Source of the DNA: Deltaproteobacteria bacterium
GTDB taxonomy: Bacteria > Desulfobacterota > Binatia > DP-6
Assembly: GCA_005879795.1 (NCBI GenBank)
Contig: VBKJ01000192.1
Span: 1-33,302, forward strand
Length of the DNA: 33,302 nt
Direction of reading: 5' to 3'
Shown here: one piece after another, positions 8,080 to 27,836 of the stretch
Position numbering within the stretch: position 1 is the first letter of the stretch
Layout: each line of letters starts with the position of its first letter
Program-made: the position numbers and the translations under genes
Notes under the pieces: model-generated
The model's database searches: none
Told to the model about the DNA's origin: nothing
The model's input: the letters and a program-made list of their open reading frames with translations, nothing else

Positions 8080-8108
8080 GTGACACCGGGGTTACGGCTC
8101 GATGACGA
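8080..8108 (-). promoter_or_regulatory. Candidate PhoB box upstream of ppk2
   Basis: Read on the minus strand, three 7-mers follow each other at exactly 11-bp steps: TCGTCAT (8108-8102), CCGTAAC (8097-8091) and GTGTCAC (8086-8080). The PhoB consensus half-site is CTGTCAC/T; matches are 5/7, 5/7 and 6/7. Both the spacing and the orientation towards ppk2 (start 8008) fit. A CATAAC hexamer (8074-8069) could serve as -10, though it is closer than in E. coli. The element covers ATG 8102, which argues that the divergent Ppx protein starts further downstream. Confidence 0.55.
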
Positions 8109-15577: not shown

Positions 15578-16945
15578 CTAAAACTTCACCTGCGCGTCGA
15601 GCTGGAGGCGCGTGAGCGTCGGGTTCGTCATCCCCGTGGGCCGGTTGATGAAGTTCGTGAAGTGACTCCGCACCGTCACCGTGAGCGGGTTCAGGAGCTG
15701 GTAGTTGATCTCCGCCACTGGCCCCTCGAGGTTCGTGCCGCCCGTGCCGAAGTCGTCGTAGGTGAAGGAGGAGATGGTCGACTCCTGGCCGATGTGCTCC
15801 CAGTAGCCGGTGACCGACCAGTCGCCGCGCGTCTTCGTCTGCCCGAGGGTGAGGCCGGCCATGACGCCGTGCGCGTCGTCCGTCGCGGCCAGCCAGTTGT
15901 AGACGTAGTCGGTGAACGCCCTGAGCGGCTGCGTGCCGATCAGGTTGGGCCAGGTGGCGGCGAGCATGGCGTTCGACTGGTTGAAGGCGCCCTTGTAGCC
16001 CGTGATCGTCGCCTTGCCGCCGACGGTCTGGGTGGTGACGAGGTTCGTGTTGATGAGGGCGGTGTTGGTGTTGAGCGCCTGCGCGATCTGGTCGGCATTG
16101 AGCCACCAGTACTGCCCGAGGCCGGCTTCGAGCTGGAGGTTCCCGAAGTGCATGCTCGGGTTCACCTGGCCCCCGAACATCCAGCCGTCCTGGTTGTTCG
16201 AGACCTCGTTGAAGGTCCACTCGAGGGCGTGCACCTTCACCTGATCGAGGGCCCCCATGGGCCGCGAGAGCAACGTGAAGGTCTCGCTCGCGCCCTCGGG
16301 CGCGAGGTCGTCGTCGAACACGAGCTGCCCGACGCGGAAGATGGGGTTCGGGAACTTGCCGGCGGTGATGGACGCGACGCCCGGGCGGATGCCGAAGCTC
16401 GCGCCGGGCGTGAAGGTGAGGAACGCCCAGTCGAGGTTGAAGTGCTTGCGGGTGAAGCCGCCGCTCAAGGTCTCGTTGTAGGATACGGGGCTGTTCGGAT
16501 CGCCCGTCGCGCCGCGGATGGTGGCCGAGATCTCGTCGCTGAAAGCCACCTTCACGCCGAGGCGCGCGCGGATGCGCTCGCGGTTGCGCGCGGTCACGAG
16601 GGTGCCCTTCTTGTGCGGCTGGTGGTAGAAACCCTCGTGCCGGTATCGCACGTCGCCGAAGACGGTGGTGCGCTTGAGCCAGTCCGGCAGCTCGACCGCC
16701 TTCTTCGCCTCGGTGGTCGCCGTCTTGGTCTCCTCGGCCGTCTGCTCGACCTGCTTCTGCGTCGCCTGGCCGATTGCCTTCTGCTGGTCGAGCTGGCGGT
16801 GCAGCTCCCTCAGTTCGTCCTCGGTCTTCCGGAGCGTCTCCTCCAGCTGCCGGAGCCGCTTCTCCGTGGGGGTCTCGGCGCCCCCGGAAACGGCAACCGT
16901 CAGCAGCACCGCGACGACTGCACCGACCAGTCCGCGCTTCATCAT
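15578..16945 (-). CDS. Outer-membrane beta-barrel porin with N-terminal coiled coil
   Basis: A 455-residue exported protein. A signal peptide (MMKRGLVGAVVAVLLTVAVS) is followed by a Glu/Lys/Gln-rich coiled coil (about residues 25-85, e.g. KRLRQLEETLRKTEDELREL). Then comes a Tyr/Trp/Phe-rich barrel of alternating strands, starting FGDVRYRHEGFYHQPHKKGT. The chain ends LTRLQLDAQVKF, with the terminal Phe typical of barrel-assembly signals. This layout resembles the 'putative porin' family (Pfam Porin_5 type). It is divergent from pstS, so phosphate or polyphosphate passage is an attractive inference, but no substrate residues can be assigned by reading and the Pho-box-like repeats nearby point to pstS, not to this gene. 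Confidence 0.82.
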   Translation of the reverse strand: MMKRGLVGAVVAVLLTVAVSGGAETPTEKRLRQLEETLRKTEDELRELHRQLDQQKAIGQATQKQVEQTAEETKTATTEAKKAVELPDWLKRTTVFGDVRYRHEGFYHQPHKKGTLVTARNRERIRARLGVKVAFSDEISATIRGATGDPNSPVSYNETLSGGFTRKHFNLDWAFLTFTPGASFGIRPGVASITAGKFPNPIFRVGQLVFDDDLAPEGASETFTLLSRPMGALDQVKVHALEWTFNEVSNNQDGWMFGGQVNPSMHFGNLQLEAGLGQYWWLNADQIAQALNTNTALINTNLVTTQTVGGKATITGYKGAFNQSNAMLAATWPNLIGTQPLRAFTDYVYNWLAATDDAHGVMAGLTLGQTKTRGDWSVTGYWEHIGQESTISSFTYDDFGTGGTNLEGPVAEINYQLLNPLTVTVRSHFTNFINRPTGMTNPTLTRLQLDAQVKF

Positions 16946-17050
16946 CGCCCCTCCCTGAGGTTCGGTCTCCGCACCCCACTGGCTGAAAACTGCCCGCCAG
17001 TCGAGGGGGGCGCGCGCCCACGGACGAGATTTCTACGCCTTTTCTCGGTC

Positions 17051-17068
17051 TCGTAACGTGGCCGTCAC
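17051..17068 (+). promoter_or_regulatory. Candidate PhoB box upstream of pstS
   Basis: TCGTAAC (17051-17057) and CCGTCAC (17062-17068) lie 11 bp apart, oriented towards pstS, whose start is 68 bp downstream. They match the CTGTCAC half-site at 4/7 and 6/7. A perfect CTGTCAC also occurs at 17083-17089, but it is 21 rather than 22 bp from the second repeat. Pst operons are the classical PhoB target. A clear -10 is not visible. Confidence 0.45.
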
Positions 17069-17136
17069 ATTCGCCCGGGAGACTGTCACGAGCATACGCT
17101 GGATTGCCGGCGGGCTCCCGAAGCGAAGGAGGACGA

Positions 17137-18159
17137 ATGCGACGACGCTGGTGGTTCGCCGGACTTCTCGCCCTCGGCCTGGCACAGCTCGCGCACGCCG
17201 CGACGCTCGTGACCGGCGCGGGTGCGACCTTCCCCTACCCGCTCTACTCGAAGTGGTTCGACGAGTTCCACAAACGCAACCCCGACCTCCAGATCAACTA
17301 CCAGTCGATCGGCAGCGGCGGCGGCATCCGCCAGGTGCTCGAGGGCACCGTCGACTTCGGCGCCACCGACGGCCCCATGAGCGACGAGCAGCTCAAGTCG
17401 GCGCCGGTGCCGATCCTCCACCTGCCGACCGCGCTCGGCGCCGTCGTGCCGACCTTCAACCTGCCCGGGGTGGAGCGCATCCGCTTCACGCCCGAGGCGA
17501 TCGCGGGCATCTTCCTCGGCAGGATCACGCACTGGAACGACCCGGCGCTCGCGACGGAGAACCCGGGCGTCGCGCTCCCCGCGGCCCCGTTCGTCCCCAT
17601 GCACCGCTCCGACGGCAGCGGCACGACCTACATCTTCACCGACTACCTCGCGAAGGTGAGCCCCGAGTGGCAGCAGCGCGTCGGCCGCGGCACCTCGGTC
17701 AACTGGCCGGTCGGCCTCGGCGGCAAGGGCAACGAGGGCGTGGCCGGCCTGGTCAAACAGACGCCCAACGCGATCGGGTACGTCGAGCTGATCTACGCCG
17801 TGCAGAGCAAGCTCCCCTACGGCGACGTCCGCAACCGGAGCGGGAAGTTCGTGCAGGCGACATTGGAGAGCGTGACGGCGGCGGCCACGGCCGCCGCCGA
17901 GAAGATGCCGGAGGACTTCCGCGTCTCGATCACCGATCCGGCGGGCGCGGATGCCTATCCCATCGCGAGCTTCACCTGGCTGCTCGTCCCGACCCGCATC
18001 AAGAACGCGGACAAGGGCGCGGCGATCAAGAAGTTCCTCGCCTGGATGCTGGCCGACGGGCAGCAGCTCGCTGGTCCGCTCAACTACGCGCCGCTGCCGG
18101 CGTCCGTGGTCGCGCTCGAGCAGAAGGCGCTCGCCACGATCCAGGCCGGAGGGTTCTAG
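17137..18159 (+). CDS. pstS: PstS periplasmic phosphate-binding protein
   Basis: A 340-residue ABC phosphate receptor. The signal peptide is MRRRWWFAGLLALGLAQLAHA. Phosphate-binding segments are clear: GAGATFPYPLYSKWF at the mature N-terminus, SIGSGGGIRQVLEG, FGATDGPMSDEQL and HRSDGSGTTYIFTDYL, with IGYVELIYA later. ATG 17137 is preceded by AAGGAGG at 17126-17132, which fixes the start over an in-frame ATG 33 bp upstream. It is the first gene of pstSCAB-phoU-arsC, delivers phosphate to the PstCA permease and is the part expected to be most strongly induced by phosphate starvation. Confidence 0.96.
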   Translation: MRRRWWFAGLLALGLAQLAHAATLVTGAGATFPYPLYSKWFDEFHKRNPDLQINYQSIGSGGGIRQVLEGTVDFGATDGPMSDEQLKSAPVPILHLPTALGAVVPTFNLPGVERIRFTPEAIAGIFLGRITHWNDPALATENPGVALPAAPFVPMHRSDGSGTTYIFTDYLAKVSPEWQQRVGRGTSVNWPVGLGGKGNEGVAGLVKQTPNAIGYVELIYAVQSKLPYGDVRNRSGKFVQATLESVTAAATAAAEKMPEDFRVSITDPAGADAYPIASFTWLLVPTRIKNADKGAAIKKFLAWMLADGQQLAGPLNYAPLPASVVALEQKALATIQAGGF

Positions 18160-18179
18160 CCACGGGCCGCGCCGCTCTC

Positions 18180-19142
18180 CTGTCCTCTCCCGCCGTCCGC
18201 CTCGCGGCGGCCCGGCCACGCCGCCCGAGACGGCTCGGCGATCCGGCGTTTCGCGCCCTCTCGCTCGCCTTCGCGCTCTCGGTCATCGCCATCGCCGGCA
18301 CCATCGCCGTCGTGCTGCTGCGCCGCTCGGCGCTGGCGCGGGCGGCCTTCGGGCTGGGCTTCCTCTGGACGTCGACGTGGGACCCGGTCGCGCTCCGCTT
18401 CGGGGCCCTCCCCTTCATCTACGGGACGCTCGCCACCACCGCGATCGCGATCACGATCGCGCTCCCGCTCGGCCTCGGCGCCGCGGTCTGCCTCGCCGAG
18501 CTCATGCCCCGGCGGCTCGCCGACCCGCTCACCTTCCTGATCGAGCTGCTGGTCGCCGTGCCGAGCGTCATCTACGGCCTGGTCGGCGTATTCGTCCTCG
18601 TGCCGGCGATCCGTAGCGTCGAGCAGGCCGTCGCGCCCGTGCTCGGGTCCATCCCGCTCTTCGCGGGACCCGCCTACGGCGTGGGGCTCCTCGCGGCCGG
18701 CATCCTCCTCGCAGTCATGATCGTCCCGTTCATCGTCAGCGTGTCGCGCGAGGTCCTCCTCGCGGTGCCGCAGACGCAGCGCGACGCAGCCCTGGCGCTC
18801 GGGGCCACGCGCTGGGAGACGGTGCGCGACGTGGTCGTCCCCTACGCGCGCTCGGGCATCCTGGGCTCGGTCTTCCTTGCCCTGGCGCGCGCGCTCGGCG
18901 AGACCATGGCGGTGACCATGGTGATCGGCAACCGTCCCGAGCTCGCCGCCTCGCTCTTCGCGCCCGCCTACACGATGGCCGCCGTGCTCGCCAACGAGTT
19001 CACCGAGGCGACGGACGACGTCTACCTGGCCGCGCTGGTCGAGATCGGGCTCGTGCTGTTCGCGATCACGCTCGCGGTGAATGCGATCGCGCGGCTCCTG
19101 ATCGCCACTGTCCGGCCGGCGCCCGGCGCCGCGCGCCCATGA
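18180..19142 (+). CDS. pstC: PstC phosphate ABC permease (start codon not canonical)
   Basis: A permease with six predicted membrane helices. The first is [20 protein letters not shown]. The conserved early part [20 protein letters not shown] and [20 protein letters not shown] are characteristic. The cytoplasmic EAA loop is [20 protein letters not shown], and [14 protein letters not shown] follows. The frame is open well upstream, but between the pstS stop (18159) and helix 1 there is no ATG, GTG or TTG in any frame. The first in-frame candidate, GTG 18312, would delete helix 1. CTG 18180 is given here as a placeholder; ACG 18162 or a sequence error are alternatives. With the CTG the length is about 320 residues, normal for PstC. 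The stop overlaps the pstA start (ATGA). Confidence 0.9.
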
Positions 19143-19987
19143 ACGCGACCTACCGGCACCGCCGCCGCATCGAGCGGCTCATGTTCGGGGCGACGGCAGG
19201 CGCGACCGTGGCGACACTCGGTGTGCTGGTCTTCCTGCTCGGCTACATCGCCTGGCAGGGCATGAGCTCGCTCTCGTGGAGCTTCTTCACCGCGCTCCCG
19301 GCGCCCGTCGGCGAGGCGGGCGGTGGCATGGCGAACGCCATCGTGGGGAGCGCGAAGCTCCTCCTCACGGCGGCCATGGTCGGCATTCCCGTCGGCTTCC
19401 TCGGCGGCGTCTACCTCGCCGAGTACGGCCGCGGATCGCTCGCCAGCTGGGTCGGCTACGCGGCGGACGTGCTGAACGGCGTCCCCTCGATCGTGATCGG
19501 CATCACGGTCTACGCGCTCGTCGTCATCCCCATCGGCCACTTCTCGACCCTGGCGGGCGGGGTGGCGCTCGGCGTGATGATGGTCCCCGTCGCGCTGCGC
19601 TCGACCGAGGAGTTCCTGCGCCTCGTCCCCGACTCGCTGCGCGAGGCGGCGCTCGCGCTCGGCGCCCCGCGCTGGGTGACGATCGTGCGCGTCGTCATCC
19701 CCGCCGCCGGGCGCGGCATCACGACCGGCCTCCTCCTCTCGCTCGCGCGTGTCGCGGGCGAGACCGCACCGCTCCTCTTCACGGCGCTCAACAACCGCTT
19801 CTGGAGCCCGGGCTGGCTCCAGCCGACGGCGTCGCTCCCGGTCATGATCTTCACCTACGCGATCGCGCCCTACGAGGACTGGCACCGCCAGGCCTGGGCG
19901 GCGGGCCTCGTGCTCCTGGCCCTCGTGTTGGGGACCAATGTCCTCGCCCGCTTCCTCCTGCGCAGCGGAGCGGTGCGGAGCGCCTAG
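19139..19987 (+). CDS. pstA: PstA phosphate ABC permease
   Basis: A 282-residue membrane permease that pairs with PstC. Helices are evident from residue 18 ([20 protein letters not shown]). Family stretches include [36 protein letters not shown] and [18 protein letters not shown], then the EAA loop [20 protein letters not shown] and [16 protein letters not shown]. The start ATG 19139 overlaps the pstC stop by 4 bp. The stop shares a base with the GTG start of pstB (TAGTG), so the permease subunits and the ATPase are tightly coupled in translation. Confidence 0.96.
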
Positions 19988-20793
19988 TGCTCGACCCCGG
20001 ACTCACGCGCATCCATCCCCCGGCGGCGGCCACCGACGCGCCGATCAAGATCGCCGTGCGCGATTTGGTCGTCCACTACGGCGGCACCTGCGCCCTGGAG
20101 GCCGTGTCGCTCGACATCCCGGCGCACCGCGTGACGGCGCTGATCGGTCCGTCGGGCTGCGGCAAGTCGACGTTCCTCCGCTGTCTCAACCGCATGAACG
20201 ACCACATCCCGGGCGCGCGCGTCACCGGCCAGGTGACCATCGACGGCGACCCGATCTACGGGTCTGAGGTCGATCCCGTCGTGCTTCGCCGCCGCGTCGG
20301 GATGGTCTTCCAGAAGTCCAACCCCTTCCCCAAGTCCGTCTTCGACAACGTCGCCTTCGGGCCTCGCGTGCACGGCGAGCGCGACTCCCTGTGTCTGCGC
20401 GAGATCGTCGAGCGCACACTCCGCCAGGCTGCGCTCTGGGACGAGGTGAAGGACCGGCTCGACCGCTCCGCCCTCGAGCTCTCGGGCGGGCAGCAGCAGC
20501 GACTCTGCATCGCGCGCGCGCTCGCGGTCGAGCCCGAGGTGGTGCTCATGGACGAGCCGGCCTCGGCCCTGGACCCGATCGCGACCGCCAAGATCGAAGA
20601 GCTGATCCACGAGTTGAAAAACGCCTACACGATCGTCATCGTGACCCACAACATGCAGCAGGCCGCCCGCGTCTCGGACCTGACCGCCTATTTCTACCTG
20701 GGCCGGCTGGTCGAGTTCGGGCCGACCGAGCGCCTGTTCACCAACCCCGTGCGGCCGGAGACCGAGGACTACATCACGGGACGGTTCGGCTGA
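19987..20793 (+). CDS. pstB: PstB phosphate ABC transporter ATPase
   Basis: A 268-residue ABC ATPase that powers PstSCA. Walker A is GPSGCGKST, preceded by [10 protein letters not shown] and followed by the Pst-typical [19 protein letters not shown]. The Q-loop region is [20 protein letters not shown], the signature is [15 protein letters not shown], Walker B is [13 protein letters not shown] and the switch His is in [15 protein letters not shown]. The N-terminal 20 residues before [14 protein letters not shown] are dispensable-looking, so a start later than GTG 19987 is possible. I chose 19987 for its 1-bp overlap with pstA. Its stop overlaps the phoU start by one base. Confidence 0.96.
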
Positions 20794-21476
20794 TGCCGCT
20801 CCATACCGACCGGGCCTTCGAGGAGCAGCTCGGCCAGCTCCGTACCGCCGTCCTCGAGATGGGCGGGCTCGTGGAGGAGCAGATCGGGCAGGCGGTGCGC
20901 GCGCTCACCCAGCGCGACGAAGCGCTCGCCCACGCCACCATCGAGCGCGACCACACCGTGAACCGCTTCGACGTCGAGATCGACGACCTCTCGCTCAAGC
21001 TGCTGGCGCTCCGCCAGCCCGCGGCGCGCGACCTCCGCCTCATCACCACCACGCTCAAGATCACGACCGACCTGGAGCGCATCGGCGACATGGCGACCCA
21101 CATCGCCGAGCGCGCGATCGAGCTCGCCGCCGAGGTGCCGATCAAGCCCTACATCGACATCCCGCGGATGGCCGACGTGGCGCGCGACATGCTCCGGCGG
21201 AGCCTCGACGCCTTCGTGCGCGAGGACACCGAGCTGGCGCTGAGCGTGTGCCTCGCAGACGACACGATCGACCAGCTCCACGAGCAGCTCTTCCGGGAGC
21301 TGCTGTCCTACATGGTCGAGAACCCGGCCACGGTCAGCCGCGCCATGCGGCTCCTCTTCGTCTCCAAGTACCTCGAGCGGGTGGGCGACCACGCCACCAA
21401 CATCGCCGAGATGGTGATCTTCATGGTGAAGGGGCGCTCGATCCGGCACATGGACAAGCTGCCGCGCGAACTCTGA
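20793..21476 (+). CDS. phoU: PhoU phosphate-signalling regulator
   Basis: A 227-residue, all-helical protein made of two similar three-helix bundles. The first contains LRLITTTLKITTDLERIGDM and the second LLFVSKYLERVGDHATNIAE; the metal-binding E-R-I/V-G-D motifs are both present. PhoU links the occupancy of PstSCAB to the PhoR kinase so that the Pho response is off when phosphate is plentiful. The ATG 20793 overlaps the pstB stop (TGATG). phoB and phoR lie 1.6 kb downstream on the other strand, so the full signalling chain is local. Confidence 0.95.
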   Translation: MPLHTDRAFEEQLGQLRTAVLEMGGLVEEQIGQAVRALTQRDEALAHATIERDHTVNRFDVEIDDLSLKLLALRQPAARDLRLITTTLKITTDLERIGDMATHIAERAIELAAEVPIKPYIDIPRMADVARDMLRRSLDAFVREDTELALSVCLADDTIDQLHEQLFRELLSYMVENPATVSRAMRLLFVSKYLERVGDHATNIAEMVIFMVKGRSIRHMDKLPREL

Positions 21477-23094: not shown

Positions 23095-24960
23095 CTACCG
23101 CGCGACCTCGGCTGCCGGCCGCGCCGGCGCCGCGGCGGGCCAGAGCACCCGCACCGTGGTGCCGCGGCCGACGGCGCTGGTGATGCCGAGCTCGCCGCCA
23201 TGGGCCTGGACGATGTGCTTCACGATCGCGAGCCCGAGCCCCGTGCCGCCGAGGGCGCGCGAGCGTCCCTTGTCGACGCGGAAGAAGCGCTCGGTCAGCC
23301 GCGGCAGGTCCCGCGCGGGGATGCCGACGCCCGTGTCCTCGACGGCGATCTCGACCATGCCGTCGTGCTCGGCGCCGCTGGCGGCGGCCCGCACGAACAC
23401 GCGGCCGCCCCCCGGCGTGTACTTGATCGCGTTGTCGACCAGGTTGATGAGCACCTGCCGGAAGCGATCCGCGTCAGCCTCGAGCGCGGGGCTGGCCGGG
23501 TCGACCTGCGCGCCGAGCTCGACGCCACCCCGCGCCGCCGTGTCGGAGAGGATCTGGAGCGCGTCCTCCACCGCGGGCGCAACGGCGACCGTGCCGAGGC
23601 GGAGCGGGCTGCGCCCCAGCTCCAGGTCGGAGAGGGTGAGCAGGTCGTCGATCAGCCGCCCGAGGCGCTCCGAGTGCCGGTCGATGACCGAGAGAAAACG
23701 CCGCCGCGCCTCGCGGTCGTCGCCCGCGGGGCCGAGGAGGGTCTCCGCGTAGCCCTTGATGGCCGTGACCGGCGTGCGCAGCTCGTGCGACACGTTGGCG
23801 ACGAAGTCGCGGCGCACGACCTCCAGGCGGCGCAGCTCGGTGACGTCGTGCAGCACGAGCACGTAGCCGAAGGGCTGGCCGTCGGGGCCGCACAGCCGAG
23901 CCCCGTTCACCTGGAGGGTCGTGCGCTCGGCGCCCTCGAGCATCAGGTCGCGCGAGAGGACCGTCTCGCCCCCGGCGAGCCCGCGCAGCATCTCGCTCAC
24001 CTGCGGCTGGCGCGCGACCTCGACGAGCGACCGCCCGGCGCCGTCGAGGCCCGCGGGCAGGCCGAGCAGCTCGCGCGCACGCTCGTTCATGAGCGCCACC
24101 CGGCCGACCAGGTCGGTGACCAGCACGCCCTCCACCATGCCGCGCAGGATCGCCTCCAGCCGCTCGCGCTCGACGCGCAGCGCCGCGATGGTGGCCGCCA
24201 CCTCGCGCGCCATCTCGGCGAGCTGCGCCTCGAGGACGCCCAGGTCGTCGCGCCGCTCGGGCGCCAGGTAGGGCGCGGGGGCGCCGCCCGCGACGGCGCG
24301 CGCGAACGCGACCAGCCGCTGGATGCGGCGCAGCACGCGGCGCGAGAGGACGAGCGAGGTCGCGAGGCCGAGGAGCATCGCCGCGAGGAGCCCGATGACG
24401 AGGAGCCGGCGGAGATGCGCCACATTCTCCGCCACCGCCGTCAAGGGCAGCGCCGTGCGCACGACGCGCACCGCGTCGGCGCGCGTCTGCAGCCAGGCGG
24501 TGTAGAGAAGCAGCGCGCCGACCGTGGCGCTGTGGCGGACGGCCTGGCCGCGGCCCATGGTGAGGGCGTCCTTGACCTCGGGCCGATCGGCGTGGTTCTC
24601 GAGCGACTCCGAGGAGCGCGTCGACTCGCCGAGCACGCGGCCGTCCGCCGCGATCACGGTGAGGCGGACGCCGAGGTCGGCGGCGAGCTGCGCGCAGGCC
24701 ACGTCGAGCGGCGCGCCGGCCGTCCACGGCAGCGCCTCCCCCGCGACGCGCGCCTCGGCCAGGAGGCGCTCGCCGAGCGTCTCGATCTGGTGCCGCTCGA
24801 CCGTGAGCGCGACGTAGGGGATCGCCGTCGCGAGCGCGGCGCCGAGCGCCGCGAGCGTCGGCAGGACGAACTGGAGGACGAGCCTACGGCTCGAGCGCGT
24901 CGGGGTTGAACTTGTAGCCGACGCCGCGGACGGTGAGGATGAGCTCGGGGTTGGCGTCAT
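23095..24960 (-). CDS. phoR: PhoR-like sensor histidine kinase (start uncertain)
   Basis: About 621 residues from ATG 24960, or about 595 from the membrane segment. An N-terminal helix (LPTLAALGAALATAIPYVAL) is followed by a periplasmic domain, then a second membrane helix (LLVIGLLAAMLLGLATSLVL), HAMP and PAS domains (GMVEGVLVTDLVGRVALMNE). The kinase core has an H-box FVANVSHELRTPVTAIKGY, N-box LINLVDNAIKYTPGGG, G1 VEDTGVGIP and G2 GGTGLGLAIVKHI. It senses phosphate status with PhoU and phosphorylates PhoB. The only canonical start near the membrane segment is ATG 24960, which overlaps phoB by 77 bp and adds a Ser/Pro/Thr-rich leader. A non-canonical start next to the phoB stop is equally possible. 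Confidence 0.92.
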   Translation of the reverse strand: MTPTPSSSSPSAASATSSTPTRSSRRLVLQFVLPTLAALGAALATAIPYVALTVERHQIETLGERLLAEARVAGEALPWTAGAPLDVACAQLAADLGVRLTVIAADGRVLGESTRSSESLENHADRPEVKDALTMGRGQAVRHSATVGALLLYTAWLQTRADAVRVVRTALPLTAVAENVAHLRRLLVIGLLAAMLLGLATSLVLSRRVLRRIQRLVAFARAVAGGAPAPYLAPERRDDLGVLEAQLAEMAREVAATIAALRVERERLEAILRGMVEGVLVTDLVGRVALMNERARELLGLPAGLDGAGRSLVEVARQPQVSEMLRGLAGGETVLSRDLMLEGAERTTLQVNGARLCGPDGQPFGYVLVLHDVTELRRLEVVRRDFVANVSHELRTPVTAIKGYAETLLGPAGDDREARRRFLSVIDRHSERLGRLIDDLLTLSDLELGRSPLRLGTVAVAPAVEDALQILSDTAARGGVELGAQVDPASPALEADADRFRQVLINLVDNAIKYTPGGGRVFVRAAASGAEHDGMVEIAVEDTGVGIPARDLPRLTERFFRVDKGRSRALGGTGLGLAIVKHIVQAHGGELGITSAVGRGTTVRVLWPAAAPARPAAEVAR

Positions 24961-25600
24961 CGCGCTCGATGCGTCTCCGCAGCCGGCGGACGTGGACGTC
25001 CACGGTGCGCGGCTCGACGTGCGTGTCGGGGCCCCATACGAGGTCCAGGAGCTGGAGCCGATCGTACACCCGATTGGGGTGGCGGACGAAGAACTTGAGG
25101 AGCTCGAACTCCCGCAGGGAGAGGCCGAGGCGCTCCCCATCGATGAACCCCTCGTAGGTGTCGAAGTCGAGCCGCAGGCGGCCCCGCTCGAAGATCTCGT
25201 GCGGGGCCGGGGTGTCCTCGCCGTGCGTGCGCCGGAGCACGGCCCGCACCCGCGCCACCAGCTCGCGCGGGCTGAACGGCTTGGTCACGTAGTCGTCGGC
25301 TCCGAACTCGAGGCCGAGGACCCGGTCCACCTCCGCCGCCTTGGCGGTGAGCATGATGACCGGGAGGGCGCGCGTCCCCTCGGCGGCCCGCAGGCGCCGG
25401 CAGACCTCGAGCCCGTCCATCGCCGGCAGCATCAGGTCGAGCACTACGAGCGCGGGCCGCTCGGCCACCACCACGGTCAGGGCGCTCTCGCCCGACTCCG
25501 CCTCACGGACGGCATAGCCTTCCTGCTCGAGGTGGAAGCGGACGAGCTCGCGGATGTCCTTCTCGTCCTCGACCACGAGGATCGTGCGCTTGACGCCCAC
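24884..25600 (-). CDS. phoB: PhoB-like OmpR-family response regulator
   Basis: A 238-residue regulator. The receiver domain (1-120) has the acidic cluster E11-D12-E13, phospho-acceptor D55 in VVLDLMLPAMDG, T85 and K107 (VTKPFSPREL). The C-terminal winged helix contains LSLREFELLKFFVRHPNRVY and the recognition-helix region HVEPRTVDVHVRRLRRRIER, ending RGVGYKFNPD. It should bind 11-bp-phased CTGTCAC-like repeats, four sets of which I list in this window. It is the first gene of phoB-phoR. Three such repeats lie 30-58 bp upstream of ATG 25600, suggesting autoregulation. Confidence 0.95.
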   Translation of the reverse strand: MGVKRTILVVEDEKDIRELVRFHLEQEGYAVREAESGESALTVVVAERPALVVLDLMLPAMDGLEVCRRLRAAEGTRALPVIMLTAKAAEVDRVLGLEFGADDYVTKPFSPRELVARVRAVLRRTHGEDTPAPHEIFERGRLRLDFDTYEGFIDGERLGLSLREFELLKFFVRHPNRVYDRLQLLDLVWGPDTHVEPRTVDVHVRRLRRRIERDDANPELILTVRGVGYKFNPDALEP

Positions 25601-25629
25601 GGAAACCGCCCTCAGGCTACTGGCTCATT

Positions 25630-25658
25630 ATGACACGCCGGTGACGGGACGGTGAACT
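25630..25658 (-). promoter_or_regulatory. Candidate PhoB box upstream of phoB
   Basis: Read on the minus strand: AGTTCAC (25658-25652), CCGTCAC (25647-25641) and GTGTCAT (25636-25630), at exactly 11-bp steps. Matches to the CTGTCAC/T half-site are 4/7, 6/7 and 6/7. A weak -10 (TAGCCT, 25619-25614) lies 10 bp beyond the last repeat, close to the usual PhoB promoter spacing, which would give a very short leader before ATG 25600. Confidence 0.6.
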
Positions 25659-25731: not shown

Positions 25732-26481
25732 ATGGTGCGTCGGGGTGGGGACGCGGACGCCTCCGGCGAGGGCACCTCCTGGCTCGTGCTCCGGCACGTG
25801 CAGGCCGAGGGGCTCGGCCTCCTCGTCAACGTGCTGCGCGACCGGGGCATCCACCATCGCTACCTCGACCTGCCGCGCGGCGAGGCGCCGCCGCGCGACC
25901 TCACCAACGTGGGCGGGCTCATCGTGCTGGGCGGGCCCATGTCGGTCTACGAGGCGGAGCGGCACACGTTCCTCCGGACCGAGAGCGGGCTCGTGGAGCG
26001 CGCGTTCACCGCGGGCCGCCCGGTGCTCGGCATCTGCCTCGGCGCACAGCTCATCGCGAGCGTGCTCGGAGCGCGGGTCTACGCTGGCGAGCGGCGCGAG
26101 GTCGGCTGGGCGCCGATCACGCTCACCCCCGAGGGGCGCGACGATCCCGTCTTCGGCGTCCTCGAGCCCGAGCTCACCGTCTTCCACCTGCACGGCGACA
26201 CCTACGAGCTGCCGCCCGACGCGCGCAACCTGGCGCGCTCGGCGCTCTACGAGCAGCAGGCCTTCCGCTGGGGCGACGTCGTCTACGGGCTCCAGTTCCA
26301 CCTCGAGTTCACCGAGACGATGATCCAGCGCCTGGCGACCGAGGCCGAGTCCCGCGCCTACGTCACCGGCGCCGGGGTCGATCCGAAGGCGCTCGTGCGC
26401 GACGCCGCGCAGCACGTGCGCCGCCTCGGGCCGGTGGTGGAGAAGGTGTTCGCCGAGTTCTTCGCTCAGTGCGGGCTCTGA
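25732..26481 (+). CDS. Class-I glutamine amidotransferase (GMP-synthase-like)
   Basis: A 249-residue triad-type glutaminase domain. Nucleophile Cys102 is in GICLGAQLIASVLGAR, His190 and Glu192 are in LQFHLEFTE, and LIVLGGPMSVYEAERH shows the oxyanion-side loop. There is no synthetase or substrate domain, so it is a stand-alone protein like those often annotated as GMP-synthase-like; the amine acceptor is unknown. ATG 25732 is preceded by GAGGGG. A TTGACT at 25697-25702 could be a -35 element. The last 16 bp overlap the convergent phosphatase gene. Confidence 0.85.
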   Translation: MVRRGGDADASGEGTSWLVLRHVQAEGLGLLVNVLRDRGIHHRYLDLPRGEAPPRDLTNVGGLIVLGGPMSVYEAERHTFLRTESGLVERAFTAGRPVLGICLGAQLIASVLGARVYAGERREVGWAPITLTPEGRDDPVFGVLEPELTVFHLHGDTYELPPDARNLARSALYEQQAFRWGDVVYGLQFHLEFTETMIQRLATEAESRAYVTGAGVDPKALVRDAAQHVRRLGPVVEKVFAEFFAQCGL

Positions 26482-27836
26482 GCGAGCAGCGCGGCGATCG
26501 GGTGTCCGGCGCGCGCGGGCGGCACCGCGCGACCGTCGAGCAGCCGGGGCACGCGCAGCCCGAGGAGCGCGGCGATGGTCGGCGCGACGTCCACCGAGCC
26601 GGGCGACGGCGTGCCGCGTGGCGCGGCGCGGAGCCCCGCCCAGCCGCCCGTCACGACGAGCGGCACGGCGAGGTCCTCGGGCCCGCCGTGGTTGCCGAGG
26701 AGCCCCGCCTCGACCGGGTCGAACGGGTCGACGAACTGGTGACCGGGTGCGGCCACGAGGAGGAGCTCGCCCGTGCGCGGATGGTCGAGATGCCAGTCGG
26801 GATGGACCGCGCCGAGCGTCGGCACGTCCGGCACGGGCAGGCGGGCCAGCACCTCCGCGACACCCGGCGCCGCGCGCGCGAGCGCGGCGACGCGGGCGAG
26901 CGGCTCCGCCGCATCGCCCGCGGCGGCGGCGCCGGCCGCCACGCGCTCGGCATAGACGTGCTCCACGCCGCCGTCGGCGACGACCGTGACCCCGCGGACC
27001 ATCTCCCGCCGGAGCACGGGCTCGAGCGAGATCACGGGGTGCGGCCGCTCCGGCGTCGGGCCGACGGCACTCATGCCGTGGTCGGCGGTCACGATGACGA
27101 CCGAGCGGTCCCAGCGCCCGCGGGCGTGGAGATCGTCGAGCAGGCGGCCGACGGCAGCGTCGGCGCCGGCCACGGCGCGTACGTACTCCGGCCCGTCGGG
27201 ACCGCGCGCGTGCCCCGTCCGGTCGACGTCCGAGAGGTTCAGCACCGCGAGGTCGGGCTCGGCAGCGGCCGCGAGCGCGAGGACCGCCCCCATGGTCTCG
27301 GCGTCTGGGGCATAGCCGCTCGCGGGATCGCGGCGGGCGGGTGGAAGCCGCTCCGGTGACCAGAGCATGTCGGGCGCCCGCTGGCGCGCGGGCACGCCCG
27401 CGAACAGGCGCGCGAGCTTGGGCTTGCCCAGGGCGGCCATGGTCGCGAGCGACGGCTGGTCCGTCTCGGCGACCGTGAAGAGGGTCTCCACCTTGATCAG
27501 CGCCGCGTTGTCGAGCTTCTCCGGCGGCGCGCCGGGGGCGCGGCTCCTGTAGGCGTTCCCCGTGATGCCGTGCGCGTCGGGGTAGGCGCCGGTCAGCAGC
27601 GTCACGTGGTTCGGGTTCGTGCGCGCCGGCATGACCGCGTGCGCGTCCGGAAAGAGGGAGCTGTGCGCGGGCTCGTGCGCCACCGCCTCGAAGAGCCGCG
27701 GCATGTGCGCCGCGTCCGCGACGCGGGCGGCGAGCCCGTCCACGATCACGAGGTAGACGTGCGGGCGCGGCGGCGCGTCCGCCGCGGCGCGCAGCGAGCA
27801 GGCGAGGAGCCACGCGAGGGCCAGGAGGGCGCGCAT
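26466..27836 (-). CDS. Exported nucleotide-pyrophosphatase/phosphodiesterase-type phosphatase
   Basis: A 456-residue member of the alkaline-phosphatase superfamily, NPP-like. A signal peptide (MRALLALAWLLACSLRAAA) sends it out of the cytoplasm. Metal and nucleophile residues are visible: D33 in VYLVIVDGLAARV, nucleophile Thr73 in PARTNPNHVTLLTGAYPDAH, the D...H pair in LNLSDVDRTGHARGP and DHGM in VIVTADHGMSAVGPTP. It could release phosphate from diesters or nucleotides outside the membrane, complementing Pst uptake. No Pho-box-like repeat is visible upstream (27837-27882), so control by PhoB is unsupported. The upstream neighbour is divergent. Confidence 0.88.
   Translation of the reverse strand: MRALLALAWLLACSLRAAADAPPRPHVYLVIVDGLAARVADAAHMPRLFEAVAHEPAHSSLFPDAHAVMPARTNPNHVTLLTGAYPDAHGITGNAYRSRAPGAPPEKLDNAALIKVETLFTVAETDQPSLATMAALGKPKLARLFAGVPARQRAPDMLWSPERLPPARRDPASGYAPDAETMGAVLALAAAAEPDLAVLNLSDVDRTGHARGPDGPEYVRAVAGADAAVGRLLDDLHARGRWDRSVVIVTADHGMSAVGPTPERPHPVISLEPVLRREMVRGVTVVADGGVEHVYAERVAAGAAAAGDAAEPLARVAALARAAPGVAEVLARLPVPDVPTLGAVHPDWHLDHPRTGELLLVAAPGHQFVDPFDPVEAGLLGNHGGPEDLAVPLVVTGGWAGLRAAPRGTPSPGSVDVAPTIAALLGLRVPRLLDGRAVPPARAGHPIAALLAQSPH

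Follow-up and report, generated by a model that had tools for sequence, protein, structure and literature searches.

The question raised by this locus is whether the short repeats in front of phoB constitute a Pho box, through which PhoB would control the expression of its own gene. The window (the whole stretch of DNA analysed, 33,302 nucleotides) corresponds to contig C192 of a 4.1-Mb genome, referred to as G000 among its relatives, which we take as members of the class Binatia. The original prediction described three repeats, AGTTCAC, CCGTCAC and GTGTCAT, at exact 11-bp steps, 30–58 bp before the ATG of phoB. The letters are exact, and the repeats are located on the minus strand (no strand had been given), where, read from 25658 to 25630, they are separated by cgtc and cggc within the phoB/amidotransferase intergenic region. 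The 11-bp steps are correct as well (the units begin at 25658, 25647 and 25636), and so are the distances to phoB, except that its start codon is GTG, not ATG (Table 1). As read from the sequence, the minus-strand region from 25658 to 25614 is very probably a PhoB-activated promoter of phoB-phoR, at which PhoB~P would recruit RNA polymerase.

Table 1. Coordinates of the features of the window (positions are those of the whole stretch).
Feature	Position	Strand	Remarks
Pho half-site 1	25652..25658	(-)	AGTTCAC, core GTTCAC
Pho half-site 2	25641..25647	(-)	CCGTCAC
Pho half-site 3	25630..25636	(-)	GTGTCAT
Predicted -10 element	25614..25619	(-)	TAGCCT, 10 nt after third half-site core
Inferred transcription start	25607	(-)	Deduced from -10 position
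phoB, response regulator	24884..25600	(-)	GTG start at 25600; Response_reg and Trans_reg_C
phoR, sensor kinase	about 23095..24909	(-)	Provisional start; HisKA, HATPase_c, PAS; overlaps phoB end
Second perfect three-half-site Pho box	8080..8108	(-)	Between ppk2 (-) and ppx (+)
Weaker Pho box before pstS	17041..17068	(+)	Good half-sites CGTAAC, CGTCAC; no TA at 10/11 nt
pstS-pstC-pstA-pstB-phoU	17137..21476	(+)	NCBIfam equivalog model above cut-off for all five

The Pho box is described as tandem direct repeats with an 11-nt period, composed of 7 conserved and 4 loose nucleotides (PMC4415409). The repeats in front of phoB have this build, and their half-sites are of the TGTCAT and GTTCAC kinds. 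With a scoring based on simple half-site weights, the three-repeat score was not reached once, on either strand, when the 131-bp region between the two genes was subjected to 2000 dinucleotide shuffles, and none of 30 shuffles of the whole window contains a comparable three-repeat site. In the real window a single other site, at 8080-8108 of the minus strand, outscores the phoB box. The motif TTCAC likewise opens the box at phoB of G001 and at pstS of G003, G005 and G006.

An exact 28-base IUPAC pattern of the three half-sites is found at two places in the 4.1-Mb genome, both at phosphate genes in the window (upstream of phoB, and at 8080-8108 between ppk2 and ppx), a rarity that is not an independent test, because the patterns were written after the window site had been seen. 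With at most one mismatch there are 6 matches, as compared to 1 for the reversed-pattern control; five are located within the window (three overlap at ppk2-ppx and one precedes pstS), and the lone match outside is in contig C142. A two-half-site pattern proved too loose for the genome (28 matches with at most one mismatch versus 11 in the reversed control). The site at 1845-1862, despite its good pair score, was set aside: it overlaps the start of a VWA/Tad-domain gene, and no phosphate link was seen there.

In E. coli, Pho boxes sit 10 bp upstream of a -10 element of the form TAN3T/A (PMC1906773). The phoB box shows the same arrangement, with TAGCCT located 10 nt past the 6-mer core of the third half-site, which bears out the claim of a possible -10 at the right distance. 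Among the 14 same-family sites listed, TA is present 10 or 11 nt past the third half-site in 10. Nine of the sites, picked from the same-family phoB and pstS genes (the window's own pstS is outside this tally), have TA at 10 nt (six sites) or 11 nt (three), and TANNNT is read in seven of them. One of the five further sites has TA at 10 nt and four are without it (own pstS, own ppk2, G001:C2 and G004:C95:10030). On these sequences the phoB -10 is most likely TAGCCT, and transcription starting near 25607 would leave a leader of about 7 nt, i.e. a nearly leaderless mRNA.

Another -10 candidate, CATAAT at 25632-25627, overlaps the third repeat (no specific element had been named before). It allows an E. 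coli-like arrangement, in which half-sites 1 and 2 form the working box, CATAAT is the -10, and half-site 3 acts partly as a self-repression element. CATAATG indeed sits at half-site 3 and resembles the -10 region of E. coli phoB, where self-repression is described (PMC6194859). We consider this arrangement improbable, since CATAAT is missing from the other eight tallied same-family phoB/pstS sites and lies 8 nt, not 10, past half-site 2, whereas TA follows half-site 3 by 10 or 11 nt in 9 of 9 tallied sites (the untallied own pstS being without it). Moreover, all that the antisense strand offers is a pair of weak half-sites, 9 bp apart and scoring 4.4 and 4.2 of 5.4, as compared to CGTCAT (5.2) and CGTCAG (4.6) in E. 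coli, and the antisense half-site pair at the -10, characteristic of E. coli-type self-repression, is not seen at the window phoB.

The phoB product comprises a receiver and a winged-helix effector domain, and a PhoR-type kinase gene adjoins it. TIGR02154 PhoB is the best of the 101 matching NCBIfam models, scoring 271.9 bits versus a curated equivalog cut-off of 296.2; the name PhoB is therefore assigned from the context and the site, not from this model. In the case of the phoR product, the PnpS and PhoR models both match under their cut-offs. The aligned PhoB sequences of this genome and E. coli share 113 of 229 residues. In respect to the recognition helix and wing, 11 of the 12 positions that we take to contact DNA in E. 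coli PhoB are identical, and the remaining one, Y189, is H here.

Tandem repeats are common among the sites of OmpR-family regulators, and the genome has 5 Trans_reg_C matches, so that a member of this family other than PhoB might bind the repeats. This is very unlikely, as the motif goes together with phosphate genes both in this genome and in its relatives, and the repeats match the Pho half-sites CTGTCAT of E. coli and GTTCACC of Streptomyces coelicolor (PMC4415409).

The relatives allow the promoter to be viewed against gene order. A PhoB match at E 1e-50 is present in at least 50 of 58 genomes, with up to 48 candidates scored per genome. Forty-four phoB genes from 42 genomes were classed (identity of at least 52%, which excluded the 8 genomes whose matches were weaker), the counts being of distinct genes: 9 in 7 genomes are detached (the own gene and 8 in six relatives), and 35 lie directly behind phoU. 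The phased box is found at 8 of the 9 detached genes, namely in G000 and G001, at both copies in G006, and at one gene each in G002, G018, G024 and G037, with scores of 13.6-15.6. For the 35 genes behind phoU the upstream scores range within 9.5-12.6, none being as high as at the boxed detached genes; such low values are expected, because the upstream DNA there is largely phoU coding sequence. The telling point is that the box appears where phoB needs a promoter.

The significance of the individual boxes was assessed on 200-bp stretches, those of G037 and of the second copies of G002 and G006 being placed by the site already found. Shuffling of each detached upstream stretch reached the observed score in 0 of 1000 cases for six genes, and in 2 and 3 of 1000 for two. 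No box is present at the first phoB copy of G002, where 687 of 1000 shuffles attain the score obtained with 11-bp spacing. When spacings of 7-16 were compared at detached phoB, with the stretches so placed, only 11 stood out (mean best score 14.26; the next is 11.74). Some units in the boxes of the relatives are degenerate: the third in G024 is GGTCGT, the second in G002 is GGACAT, and the third in G006 is GGAAAC. Conservation extends to other phosphate genes, a box being located upstream of pstS in G003, G005 and G006 as well as of detached phoB.

Several local arrangements were also observed. The same-genus genomes G002 and G006 (L092, L093) each have two copies of phoB on a single contig; the box is present only at the copy with no phoR behind it in G002, and at both in G006. 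In G024 and G037 (L094, L095) a Phosphodiest-family gene immediately precedes phoB in the same orientation, and its relative in the window (26466-27836) is more distant by one gene, on the far side of the amidotransferase. The phoB upstream region of G024 (L010) has a second half-site-like row, CCGTTAC, AGGGAAC and GCGTCAC, closer to the gene than the row that scores best.

That the box mainly serves the divergent glutamine amidotransferase gene (25732-26481, plus strand), which shares the 131-bp intergenic region and retains its pairing with phoB in G001, deserves hardly any credence, since the half-sites are oriented to phoB (three half-sites score at best 11.0 on the opposite strand, versus 15.4) and no amidotransferase match (>35% identity, 90 residues) was found in the stretches examined near the six other boxed detached phoB genes of five genomes.

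The original prediction also used the motif elsewhere in the window, and it does recur there, once perfectly, with all three repeats, between ppk2 and ppx, and once more weakly, with two half-sites, before pstS. The ppk2-ppx box, to which CATAAC may add a fourth unit, suggests that polyphosphate metabolism is controlled by phosphate. ATGACA-17-TAGAGT is located immediately ahead of the GTG of ppx. In four same-family relatives scored upstream of ppx, antisense box-like rows are found in G004 (15.6) and G005 (14.2), and none in G001 and G003; no box was seen upstream of the close ppk2 relative of G006. In G004:C95 (L202, 5331-5358) the divergent neighbours pstS and ppx share one Pho box in their gap. 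Near the window pstS, CTGTCAC at 17083 was not counted, being one base off phase. A Porin_5 gene (15578-16945), possibly a phosphate porin, is divergent from pstS, as it is in G003, G005 and G006.

A second pattern with TTCAC as the first unit, built on the sites seen up to then, yielded 12 matches with at most one mismatch in 7 same-family genomes, and 0 in the control. Nine of the 12 precede phoB or pstS, one is located upstream of pstA-pstB-phoU in G001, and two are unplaced. Across the class (58 genomes) there are 68 exact matches, overlapping ones included, versus 11 in the control. Within 20 kb of phoB lie 24 of the 68, in 16 genomes, where about 0.6 would be expected by chance; 23 are located upstream of the gene, and 21 share its strand. 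The class-wide pattern specifies no downstream bases, so the offset of TA is separate from it. TA is present at offset 10 in 11 of the 24 near-phoB matches, two of these being the phoB sites of G000 and G001 already in the nine-site tally, and at every other offset in no more than 3; with the two overlapping G055 pairs counted once each by the downstream member, the value at offset 10 is 10 of 22. Little is shown by the remaining 44 matches, with TA at offsets 10, 11 and 37 in 4, 6 and 5, respectively. Among the 68 matches are also GGTTATCCACA repeats and a near copy (G022, G029, G042), which by their appearance are presumably DnaA boxes. The two same-genus genomes G029 and G022 (L220, L225) share one Pho-like site located away from phoB, and the 45 bases that follow the site are also identical.

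Of the 35 genomes in which phoB follows phoU, 11 have an exact-pattern box 0.8-13 kb upstream on the phoB strand, and in the other 24 no exact match was found upstream on that strand within 20 kb, which the strictness of the pattern may explain. It is possible, though somewhat less likely than not, that PhoB self-control has been retained across the class Binatia while gene order changed, selection acting on the feedback loop and not on the operon; the 24 genomes weigh against this reading. Accompanying it would be a box, probably at the operon head, where phoB lies behind phoU, and where phoB is detached, a three-half-site box of its own at a fixed distance from the -10 and, at least in the window, a nearly leaderless mRNA.

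With respect to known systems, the E. coli phoB Pho box (TTTCATAAATCTGTCATA) is similar in having tandem 11-bp half-sites directed toward phoB, with a weaker third unit following in E. coli. ChIP-seq shows PhoB at this E. coli site, which is widely conserved among gammaproteobacteria (PMC10294691), and autoregulation of E. coli phoB is described (PMC6194859). The site studied here differs in its GC-rich half-sites, in the inferred -10 located after half-site 3 (after half-site 2 in E. coli), in the lack of an E. coli-type antisense pair at the -10 and in the short inferred leader. The direct repeat units of S. coelicolor PhoP include GTTCACC (PMC4415409), identical to the letters at half-site 1. 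The regulator here differs in being PhoB-like, presumably of Binatia, and its operator in having just three units in a simple row. Cyanobacterial SphR boxes consist of at least three tandem 8-bp repeats with a 3-bp linker, and hence also show an 11-bp period (PMC1906773), but the SphR half-site consensus is CTTAACCT.

PhoB autoregulation, as originally proposed, is supported by the Pho-box build, the boxes at 8 of 9 detached phoB genes, the TA-type -10 and the conserved DNA-binding positions; from these we infer PhoB binding, the phosphate response, the start site and the sign of regulation at phoB. In phosphate shortage PhoR would phosphorylate PhoB, and PhoB~P molecules would line up head to tail on the three 11-bp half-sites, in place of a poor -35 element. 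For E. coli, it is well established that PhoB effector domains bind 11-nt repeats in this head-to-tail manner (PMC4415409, PMC3348028). The bound PhoB~P would set the sigma70 RNA polymerase on TAGCCT, 10 nt downstream, and transcription from near 25607 through the GTG at 25600 would yield more PhoB, closing a positive feedback.

The phoB box is a new example of the known Pho box and of PhoB autoregulation, not a new kind, and no published description of Binatia Pho boxes was found in the literature searched. This class is known mostly from assembled genomes. The layout suggested for its Pho promoters (three half-sites, 10 or 11 nt, and a TA-type -10) means that phosphate regulons in Binatia could be predicted, and the natural rearrangements of phoB offer a setting for asking whether its self-regulation is selected.
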